Of a DNA stretch of 64,000 nucleotides, positions 8,271 to 21,132 are shown one piece after another. Under the pieces are notes generated by a model. That model searched no databases. It was given only the letters and a program-made list of their open reading frames with translations, and had not been told where the DNA came from. The first letter of the stretch is position 1, and every line of letters begins with the position of its first letter. The position numbers and the translations under genes were made by a program. The DNA lies in contig NZ_CP047095.1 in the NCBI RefSeq assembly GCF_009806575.1, positions 2,732,001-2,796,000 on the forward strand, read 5' to 3'. The DNA is from Rossellomorea marisflavi. GTDB lineage: Bacteria > Bacillota > Bacilli > Bacillales > Bacillaceae_B.

Positions 8271-8871
8271 AAAATGTATATAGTTCAGGTAGTTTAATTT
8301 GTTTACGTAAATTCATAACTTCGTTGGTGACCATGTTATTAATTTCAGCGTACCTTTCATCCGCTTCATCATAATCATCACCTTTCATAGCCCATTTCAA
8401 CTCAATGAAGGCCACATAAAAAACAGAATCCCCATATACTGAGTTCCTGTTTATTAGATTGACATAGTCATCTTGTTGAGACTTTTTGAGCGTATTGAAA
8501 CTATGTGCCCCATATTGGAAAATATATTCAGCGTGCAGCACATCCAAAGGATGGTAAAGATTTAATAAGCGCTCTTTGGAAGTTGAAACTAGTAGCTCTT
8601 CTTCCCTAATTCTTCTTTGTTCATTAATGGATTTATTAATTTCATTTTCTGAAGAATCTATTGTCATTTTAACACCAAAATATGTTATTGCTCCGGATAT
8701 CAGCCCTCCACTAATTGATCCCCAAAAAGTTCCTAATGTACTTATCCATGTTTTTTCGTCACCTGAAACTGGTAAAACCCTAAAGAACATTAGTAGATTG
8801 ATTAACACAGGCAATGCTATTGCTATTAACAAAGAGTTCTTAACTATTCTTGCTAAAGATTTATTTTGCAT
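8263..8871 (-). CDS. AT-rich accessory membrane protein (moron), unknown function
   Basis: 202 residues. Two N-terminal membrane segments (about 12-32 and 47-68) are followed by a charged coiled coil (SSENEINKSINEQRRIREEE) and a soluble C-terminal region rich in Tyr, Asp and Glu. Base composition is clearly more AT-rich than the flanking terminase and replication genes, and the gene has its own terminator, the hallmarks of a moron. Such two-membrane-segment proteins can act in superinfection exclusion or abortive infection, but nothing here proves that. Confidence 0.65.
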   Translation of the reverse strand: MQNKSLARIVKNSLLIAIALPVLINLLMFFRVLPVSGDEKTWISTLGTFWGSISGGLISGAITYFGVKMTIDSSENEINKSINEQRRIREEELLVSTSKERLLNLYHPLDVLHAEYIFQYGAHSFNTLKKSQQDDYVNLINRNSVYGDSVFYVAFIELKWAMKGDDYDEADERYAEINNMVTNEVMNLRKQIKLPELYTFYT

Positions 8872-8968
8872 AATGCAGCTCCTTTCCGAAATATAATTCG
8901 ACAGAAAGGAACATTATCCTGCTTTAGACACCTCTAATAACATATAAATTTTCGCATATAATTTATTT

Positions 8969-9122
8969 AATATCCCCTGCGAATAAGTGAGCAGGAATGT
9001 TTTGTTTATTTTTATTGCGTTTGTTCTTGTTACGTTTGTTCTTATTACCGTCACTCTCCGGTGATTTACCTAAGTCACTGTAAAGTGATTAACCTAATTC
9101 ACTCTCCGGTGATTGACGTCCT
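8969..9122. other. Predicted phage replication origin: iterons, T-rich repeats and hairpin
   Basis: Three 24-bp tandem units start at 9051, 9075 and 9099; the core of each is TCAC-N6-GTGATT. Beside them are three 15-bp T-rich units at 9003, 9018 and 9033, two of which match in 13 of 15 bases. Next to these is a 30-bp hairpin element at 8969-8998 (CCTGC-N10-GCAGG with conserved flanks). The iterons overlap the 3' end of the initiator-like gene, as in lambda O. A second copy of this plan lies at 20995-21132. Confidence 0.65.
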
Positions 9123-9562
9123 TTATCACCGTACAACCTGTCGAGATTGCTTCGGATCTGCTCATCGGTAAGACTCGAGAAATACATCGGAAAGTATAAC
9201 TTGTCTCGCTTGTTTGACGTGTAGTCATACACTGTTTTTATCAGCCCGATCGCTTCAAGTACGCTGGACAGTTTCGCTATTCTGTTGCGGCCAATTCCGG
9301 TATCAGCAGCGATACGTTCAACCGATGTGAATGCGCTCATATAACGGTCATTATCTCGCCTTCCGTTGACGTTCGACAGTAGATACGTATACAACGGAAC
9401 AATATCCACGTTACTTTTTTGATATTCCCTAGCGATGGGGACAAGACGTCGGTATAGATCGTGAGGAACCGGCGCATATCCAGAGAGCCCACTATCCTCC
9501 TTAAGACTGAATGCCTTCCTATTAACGACTTCTTGCGAAAACTCCTTGAACTTTCCGCTCAT
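9089..9562 (-). CDS. Phage replication initiator-like winged-helix protein, tail possibly truncated
   Basis: 157 residues. A central winged helix (FTSVERIAADTGIGRNRIAKL) follows the segment VPLYTYLLSNVNGRR seen in replisome organiser N-domains. After the stop TAA at 9089 the same frame stays open to 8963 and would encode SLYSDLGKSPESDG, a Lys/Asn repeat and IPAHLFAGDIK. The stop sits in the middle of three repeated SPESxLGK-like units, at the place where the adjoining units have AAA or CAA, so a single base change (AAA to TAA) would explain it. The DNA encoding these units is the iteron array. It likely recruits the host helicase at that origin. Confidence 0.7.
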   Translation of the reverse strand: MSGKFKEFSQEVVNRKAFSLKEDSGLSGYAPVPHDLYRRLVPIAREYQKSNVDIVPLYTYLLSNVNGRRDNDRYMSAFTSVERIAADTGIGRNRIAKLSSVLEAIGLIKTVYDYTSNKRDKLYFPMYFSSLTDEQIRSNLDRLYGDKGRQSPESELG

Positions 9563-9611
9563 TCTACATCATCCTCTTCGATTATTTTGTAGTGCTTCGA
9601 TTAATTTCGTT

Positions 9612-9800
9612 TTATCTGACGCTGCTTTGTTGCGGCGAATATTTATCAAGTCCGGTTTGTAGAGCCGGAGTCTTTTCGTATAGGTTGAACGTTTTGCCTG
9701 TGTTGGGATTTATCGCCTCAGTAATCGGAACAAGTCCGCATTTATCGATTAAAAACCGATTGACTCGACGACTATAAATGAACGCCAATTTATCTTTCAT
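9612..9800 (-). CDS. Small phage protein (62 aa), DUF5659-like
   Basis: MKDKLAFIYSRRVNRFLIDK opening, then a short Asn/Pro turn and NLYEKTPALQTGLDKY. The layout, a hydrophobic helix with 'R-x-x-x-x-L' followed by 'N-x-x-T-x-K-x-F', resembles the small DUF5659 family often found beside phage replication genes. AAAGGA lies upstream. It is in the replication block on the same strand as its neighbours. Family from memory of the pattern only. Confidence 0.5.
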   Translation of the reverse strand: MKDKLAFIYSRRVNRFLIDKCGLVPITEAINPNTGKTFNLYEKTPALQTGLDKYSPQQSSVR

Positions 9801-10960: not shown

Positions 10961-11026
10961 CTACGGACTATGTGTCTGAGGTAAGAGTCTTTTTGTTGTG
11001 CGTCGATGCTTCGTAACTTGTCTCAT
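10961..11026 (-). CDS. Possible 21-residue basic peptide
   Basis: ATG at 11026 overlaps the stop of the 409-residue gene (TAATG), and AAGGAGGAG stands 5-8 bases upstream, an excellent coupled start. The product MRQVTKHRRTTKRLLPQTHSP is highly basic. It ends before the terminator at 10871. It is too short to classify and could be chance, but the initiation signal is stronger than for many true genes here. Confidence 0.35.
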   Translation of the reverse strand: MRQVTKHRRTTKRLLPQTHSP

Positions 11027-12255
11027 TAGCTCTCCTCCTTATTTATTGCGTTTCTCATCCCGTATGTGTCCAGTTTGACGATCTTATAGGAACTCGCCTT
11101 TACCGGCTGAATTGTGCGTAGATACTCTCCGTCAAGGCTGAATACGTGGCACGGCTGAGGACCTGCGAAATCTTTGTATCTTTCTTTTCTCTTCGCATTC
11201 GTTTCCTTCGCCTCTTCGTCCGGCATGATTGGCGCGCTTGGCTCGTACGCTTCTAGCTCCGCCTTCATTCGTTCAACGTGCATTTCAATAGCTTCGCAGA
11301 TGTCGTACAAGACTCGTGCATCGAGTTCATTCGCCTCCCCTTTAAGGTAGGACACGTACGCCTGAGTCGCCTTCCCATCGCCGGCCAATGCTTCGTAGCC
11401 TATTTCCACCGCATCCTCATCGCCAGCTATCCACACCGAAAGGGTAGCGTTCTGGCCGGGAAGATCATCGTCTGCCTCTGCCAGCGCTAGAAATTCCCGA
11501 TACTTTGCGATTTCGCCCAACAGATAATTTTCACGGCGAGAAATGCCGTCTTTCTTCCATGCAGCCATTGTTTTCTGATAGATACGGTTTTTCATATTTG
11601 ATAGGTTAGTACGTGACATCCCGACTAGTTCCTCGAAGTCGCATTCTTCTATATAGTCGCTATCTTTGGCGGAATCAACGGACATACTGTCGATGAAACG
11701 GTTTTGCCTCTTCGTTAAGAAGTCGTGGCGGTTGTCGCGAAACCAAGCCAGAAAGGGGTTGGCAACATAGTCGGCCTGGCAGGCGAACAAGGATTCCGTC
11801 ACGCTGTCGCCTACCGTTGCAACTTTGCCGCCTTCTTCGTCATAAACCGGAGCGTCGAGTGATTGGAAGTCAATGTTTACGAAAACACTGCCGCCCGTTT
11901 CGGGATCGTACATCCTCTTCGTATTCGGGTTAATGATTGGCGGTAGCTCGTGTTCGAGTTTGGTCACGACCGTTTTGATCAGGCGGTTGAGGTTCAGCTT
12001 ATCGCTGCCGTCAGCCATCGCGTCCCAACTTGCGCCCTCAACCAAGTTGAAACCGTTGATCGTCTCCCAGGCGAATGTCGCTGCTGTGTTGACGAGTTCG
12101 TATTCCGAGAAAGTGTTCGCCTTGCCCATCGCGTTAATGATGCCGTACACGGCCTTCTTGATCTTCGGATGCTTCGGCTTCAGCGAGAACTCCGTGCTGC
12201 CGTAGTTGGTTTCGAACAATACTTCCTGCAATAGTTTCGTTTGTGCCTCGTTCAT
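11026..12255 (-). CDS. Sigma-factor-like phage regulatory protein (409 aa)
   Basis: Residues about 50-75 (ELVNTAATFAWETINGF) resemble sigma region 2 helices. Residues about 180-235 contain LTKRQNRFIDSMSVDS, then FEELVGMSRTNLSNMKNRIYQK, a region-4-like helix-turn-helix in which 'LTKRQ' stands where sigma-70 proteins have 'L-T-x-R-E/Q'. The C-terminal third is helical and acidic with a short Lys-rich stretch. It lies before the replication, packaging and head genes, where a middle or late transcription switch would sit. This is a remote resemblance; a DNA-binding or replication role is also possible. Confidence 0.5.
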   Translation of the reverse strand: MNEAQTKLLQEVLFETNYGSTEFSLKPKHPKIKKAVYGIINAMGKANTFSEYELVNTAATFAWETINGFNLVEGASWDAMADGSDKLNLNRLIKTVVTKLEHELPPIINPNTKRMYDPETGGSVFVNIDFQSLDAPVYDEEGGKVATVGDSVTESLFACQADYVANPFLAWFRDNRHDFLTKRQNRFIDSMSVDSAKDSDYIEECDFEELVGMSRTNLSNMKNRIYQKTMAAWKKDGISRRENYLLGEIAKYREFLALAEADDDLPGQNATLSVWIAGDEDAVEIGYEALAGDGKATQAYVSYLKGEANELDARVLYDICEAIEMHVERMKAELEAYEPSAPIMPDEEAKETNAKRKERYKDFAGPQPCHVFSLDGEYLRTIQPVKASSYKIVKLDTYGMRNAINKEES

Positions 12256-20879: not shown

Positions 20880-20994
20880 CTTTCTGAAGTGGCAAAATAC
20901 CGTCAAAATCGTAGGTATACTCGCAAATGCTCCGGTTTACTACCGTGGTTTTGTCGTGAAAATGACGAATTATATCTTAGTCTTGTTGGCCCGT

Positions 20995-21132
20995 TTCCTA
21001 CCAGCGGGAATTAATCAATTCCTACAGACGGTAATTGATCGTTTCCTATGAGCGGGAATATAAAAAGAACGAATTAACAATAACGAATTAATAACAATAA
21101 AGATTCCTGCTCATAAATTCGCAGGGGATATT
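20995..21132. other. Second origin-like module (iterons, A-rich repeats, hairpin)
   Basis: Three 24-bp units start at 20995, 21019 and 21043; each begins TTCCTA and carries CGGKAAT near its middle. A-rich direct repeats follow (AACGAATTAACAAT at 21068 and a longer variant at 21082). Then comes a hairpin element at 21103-21132 identical in 27 of 30 bases to that at 8969-8998; the three differing bases lie together in the loop. No initiator gene overlaps it; the nearest candidate is the winged-helix protein at 21389. Orientation is opposite to the first module. Confidence 0.6.

Follow-up and report, generated by a model that had tools for sequence, protein, structure and literature searches.

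Iteron origins are in general marked by phased direct repeats linked to the gene of a DNA-binding initiator, with an AT-rich region adjacent. In lambda ori, palindromic iterons beside an AT-rich region are tied to the initiator gene, and all four iterons are inside gene O. Direct repeats and an AT-rich unwinding element also make up oriL and oriR of SPP1, a Bacillus phage with two origins per genome, one of them within the gene of the initiator gp38 (PMC6316719). In the plasmids RK2 and F, Rep binds the iterons plus one single strand of AT-rich repeats, which are 13-mers in RK2 (PMC4081077). The RepA_N replicons pSK41 and pTZ2162 and the satellite PLE combine a winged-helix initiator domain with semi-palindromic iterons that lie within the rep gene or close to it (PMC5703833, PMC7145576), and the functional initiator of plasmid pPR9 has an HTH_36 domain as its DNA-binding part (PMC5703833).

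Here, we describe a prophage locus in a 64-kb stretch of Rossellomorea marisflavi DNA (the window), in which phased direct repeats are linked to a DNA-binding initiator gene and adjoin an AT-rich region (Table 1). The original prediction had read this layout of phased repeats and A/T-rich units by an initiator gene as that of an origin, and the linkage of array and gene in relatives supports that reading. We consider it very probable that the window array serves as the prophage's replication origin, with the initiator on the iterons, the adjoining A-rich 15-mers and a hairpin as its parts, and we infer binding, melting and initiation there.

Table 1. Features of the two modules in the window (positions within the window).
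Feature	Position	Strand	Remark
Initiator gene, 157 aa, winged-helix protein	9089..9562	-	weak HTH_36, DnaD-like and replication-initiation matches
Iteron 1 (first in gene orientation), TCACCGGAGAGTGA	9099..9112	-	within ORF 3' end
Iteron 2, TCACTTTACAGTGA	9075..9088	-	directly 3' of stop codon
Iteron 3, TCACCGGAGAGTGA	9051..9064	-	abuts A-rich tract
Three A-rich 15-mers, presumed DNA unwinding element	9004..9048	-	73% A+T
15-mer GTAATAAGAACAAAC	9034-9048	-	T-rich as read on forward strand
15-mer GTAACAAGAACAAAC	9019-9033	-	
15-mer GCAATAAAAATAAAC	9004-9018	-	
Hairpin CCTGC-TCACTTATTC-GCAGG	8976..8995	-	10-nt interior
Second module, three 24-bp iterons of another type (TTCCTACCAGCGGGAAT...)	20994..21060	+	
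Second-module A-rich units ATAAAAAGAACGAA / TTAACAATAACGAA / TTAATAACAATAAA	21061..21103	+	
Second-module hairpin CCTGC-TCATAAATTC-GCAGG	21106..21127	+	nearly the same as module 1 hairpin

The whole window holds three TCAC-N6-GTGA palindromes, all in the iteron array, and they start exactly 24 bp apart at the predicted positions (9051, 9075 and 9099). The 15-bp period of the A-rich units is likewise exact; their predicted register (9003, 9018 and 9033) had to be shifted by 1 bp to 9004, 9019 and 9034. On the gene (minus) strand, the iteron triple has a repeat score of 43/54 and the 15-mers one of 34/42, and none of 100 dinucleotide shuffles reaches either score. The conserved hairpin that had been said to end the array is present; as single-stranded DNA, it folds with -3.8 kcal/mol (z -2.6), and its outer stem covaries among relatives. 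An array in the 3' end of the gene, as in lambda O, had also been proposed: this holds for one iteron (9099-9112), which is inside the ORF at 9089-9562, and fails for the other two, which follow the TAA (9089-9091) together with the 15-mers. No DnaA boxes were found at up to one mismatch in 8500-9700, and they are present in 13 of 76 relatives, which is about background.

The AlphaFold model of the initiator, from an alignment that left out one row from a plasmid record, is a confident winged helix (pLDDT 88). Its closest folds by VIA are the RepA_N domains 4pql (Z 7.8) and 4pt7 (Z 7.6), and the Geobacillus helicase loader DnaB 5wtn (Z 7.4) is also among the top rows; these scores, all below 8, are middling, and Foldseek gave no match to the model at E 0.001. 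Pfam HTH_36 is matched by 29 of 52 initiator family members and RepA_N by none of the 52 at E 0.01. The PHROG matches name replication initiation and DnaD-like loaders, all weakly, and the DnaD-like C-terminal domain is absent. Across the family, the class of the recognition helix and the class of the iteron correspond.

The locus resembles SPP1 in its direct repeats and AT-rich element, in the position of the origin at the initiator gene, in the presence of two predicted origin modules in one genome, and in belonging to a phage of a Bacillus host; the part of the SPP1 source used here does not mention a covarying hairpin for oriL or oriR (PMC6316719). As in RK2 and F, iterons lie beside repeated AT-rich short units (PMC4081077), but the RK2/F initiator family has two winged-helix domains, and oriV has DnaA boxes whereas the window array has none nearby. 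The RepA_N replicons have the initiator domain closest to the predicted fold, at middling Z, and likewise carry semi-palindromic iterons at their rep gene (PMC5703833, PMC7145576); unlike them, the window initiator has no Pfam RepA_N match and no C-terminal domain, its iterons are different, and its array lies at the 3' end of the gene rather than mid-gene and comes with 15-mers and a hairpin. The parallel with lambda O is loose, with one of three iterons inside the gene and no match of the initiator to Phage_rep_O. By analogy, the locus is best read as a cognate initiator-iteron-DUE origin that would work like SPP1 oriL or the iteron plasmids. With its fixed three-three-one layout and covarying hairpin, it apparently belongs to a separate, undescribed origin family, SPP1 being compared by description only; no description of such a family was found in the open-access literature.

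Scanning 2.9 million viral contigs (IMG/VR) for three palindromes at 24 bp, blind to the protein, yielded 16 exact triple arrays, and the initiator gene adjoins every one of them; 13 of these contigs were also known from the protein search and three were new. A slightly relaxed pattern found 11 loci in 84,980 genomes. Five are from Bacillales (Cytobacillus oceanisediminis and four Paenibacillus), all with the initiator, while the remaining six (five Bacteroides and one Actinomadura) have no initiator homologue. In the Bacteroides genomes L037, L038, L043 and L044, TCAC-N6-GTGA palindromes are repeated in tandem every 24 bp, for the most part in the gaps between ORFs and with no initiator homologue next to them. 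The 50,697 phage records searched contained neither an initiator homologue nor a convincing DNA match to the array.

Profile searches of Bacilli genomes and viral contigs brought in distant initiator homologues (27-54% identity) with different iteron types by family group: ATTCC...GGGAAT at 24 bp, AGTATG...CATACT at 25 bp, AGTAC...GTACT-like at 24 bp, and others. If the period may take any value between 18 and 32 bp, a significant three-copy array is present in 55 of the 68 distinct loci: 33 have it at 24 bp, 19 at 25 bp, two at 23 bp and one at 28 bp. Significant short-unit repeats occur in 52 of the 68, with the A-rich units spaced 15 bp in 28 loci and 14 bp in 23. The expectation that an intact initiator goes with a 24-bp array is thus borne out for phasing in those 55 loci, and for the strict 24-bp phase only in the closest groups. 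In most seeming exceptions, an inserted gene, for example that of an HNH endonuclease, separates the initiator from the array, which then sits farther downstream (L033, L083, L085, L087, L097, L090, L091 and L071); iterons are weak or not detectable in L002, L058, L101 and L062-L064.

Both repeat periods are multiples of three, and the reading frame stays open for 41 codons beyond the initiator stop, where the repeats translate as SPESELG-like and NKNKR-like peptides. We therefore had to examine whether the 24-bp and 15-bp units encode a low-complexity C-terminal tail of these two types that recently acquired a stop. All 15 close viral relatives, whose initiators are 59-79% identical, retain both the iteron triple with its 24-bp period and the A-rich units (the L009 and L015 iterons are one base off the strict palindrome). 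Among them, however, the stop codon varies in position between 32 nt past the beginning of the first iteron and 1 nt ahead of it, and in most relatives the frame across the array is broken by stops at differing repeats. In L003 the array is out of frame, in L004-L008 the initiator ORF ends before it with no iteron inside the gene, in group 3 it comes after the stop, and elsewhere it is kept behind inserted genes. Since stop and frame shift among relatives while DNA sequence and phase stay, the array is conserved as DNA and not as coding sequence, and we reject the coding-repeat explanation as extremely improbable.

Natural swaps show which parts of the origin travel together. In four pairs (L009/L084, L039/L057, L017/L074 and L015/L079), the initiators are only 27-31% identical and the iterons about 50%, near the level of unrelated aligned DNA, whereas the hairpin and downstream flank are 81-93% identical. 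Conversely, in L009/L017 and L084/L074, initiators (67-71%), iterons (81-85%) and 15-mers (80-85%) are alike and the hairpin flank is only 60% identical. Initiator, iterons and 15-mers therefore behave as one specificity unit, and the alignments place the hairpin on the opposite side of a recombination joint from them. These pairs also bear on whether the array could be a packaging site, that is, a cos/pac region to which the small terminase binds. The gene of this terminase, which is often an HTH protein, is found a little downstream in the window and many relatives; terminase sites can likewise be phased repeats. However, L009 and L084 have small terminases that are 90% identical and different iterons, and L009 and L017 have the same iterons and unrelated small terminases. 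As judged from these comparisons, iteron type tracks the initiator across the swap pairs and not the terminase, and we reject the packaging site, which we regard as very unlikely.

Outside the array, ten of 56 loci (L009-L012, L045, L065 and L067-L070) have one additional iteron of matching type 131-157 bp past it, ahead of the next gene; this distal copy is thus not a general feature and is absent from the window. It is possibly a looping or regulatory site, and together with the frequency of winged-helix folds among repressors, it would suit an operator array, with the protein acting as a repressor of the downstream late genes through the iterons. We found no promoter-like site beside the window array, the phased 15-mers and hairpin are kept with the iterons although an operator does not need them, and the sequence matches of the protein name replication-initiation and DnaD-like families, so we think a pure operator unlikely to a high degree. 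Autoregulation in addition to origin function is possible.

One relative, L033, is on a 65-kb circular plasmid record from Bacillus paralicheniformis that carries phage structural genes, a DnaB-type helicase, a toprim-domain protein and a DNA polymerase. This location would fit a partition centromere, in which a small adaptor protein binds the phased palindromes for plasmid segregation, but no partition ATPase is annotated in the record (its gene table is incomplete), and the A-rich 15-mers would be left unexplained; a centromere accordingly has a very low probability in our view. GC skew along the record is monotonic and uninformative for origin location. At L033:5012, downstream of its group-3 array, there is also a group-1 iteron, TCACCGTAGAGTGA, as a recombinant trace.

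For the origin, we propose a mechanism by analogy with SPP1 oriL, RK2 and F. Because the iterons are palindromic and phased, dimers of the 157-aa winged-helix protein would bind the three of them side by side at the 24-bp phase, and the bound array would stress or open the adjoining A-rich 15-mers. The sequence of the 15-mers changes together with the initiator, so the initiator or a helicase-loading partner probably recognizes them sequence-specifically. The hairpin beyond them may act as a generic structured element where the opened region ends and could serve, for instance, to load helicase or primase. Such an origin would bear on the question of how origin opening and the handover to the replisome are achieved by an initiator that lacks a helicase-loader domain, and the ready-made natural pairs, in which initiator, iterons and 15-mers are swapped and the hairpin is constant, let specificity and helicase loading be dissected. 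The layout (three palindromes at 24-25 bp, three A-rich 14-15-mers and a hairpin) also provides a simple sequence signature for the probable origins in this prophage family of Bacillus, Cytobacillus, Paenibacillus and relatives, a family to which the cultured-phage collection searched contains no match.

The outer stem of the hairpin forms 158 Watson-Crick pairs in 31 distinct hairpins, a set anchored on the loop motif, vs. 99.5 +/- 6.4 (maximum 123 of 2000) with the right arms re-dealt; this is a strong signal, although the sequences are related and it is therefore not a probability. The inner hairpin pairs are GC/GC or AC/GT, complementarity being required by the search, and an unpaired TC flanks both sides; the window copy is without part of the loop. 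The hairpins of six loci matched no Rfam family. We suggest, tentatively and with more doubt than confidence, that the hairpin might be an undescribed, initiator-independent DNA structure (covarying outer stem, inner GC/GC or AC/GT, conserved unpaired TC...TC) that marks where the unwound region ends and brings in helicase or primase, with initiator, iterons and 15-mers as an exchangeable specificity cassette in front. About 50 bp past the hairpin, a stretch resembling ACCTTATCGCGATAAAGAACTTATATAAAAG is common to L009, L028, L033, L078 and L084.

The longer hairpin motif occurs twice in the 4.55-Mb genome, once per origin module. There is no intact initiator beside module 2 (20994-21130), and the whole genome has only one. 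In the stretch 20889-21130, the short ORF ahead of module 2 ends in LLPWFCRENDELYLSLVGPFPTSGN, by eye like a group-2 initiator tail. From the sequence, the initiator gene beside module 2 has likely been deleted. In the two families searched, neither a polymerase nor a helicase was found in the window prophage itself, so its origin may by now be idle or rely on the host; each of the seven searched group-1 viral records with a length of at least 48 kb has its own family-A DNA polymerase. In the early region, a 409-aa ORF (11026-12255) has no PHROG match and sub-threshold Pfam matches only. The 63-kb viral contig IMGVR_UViG_2926387974_000001 has initiators from two different groups (L015 and L093), both accompanied by arrays of their own.
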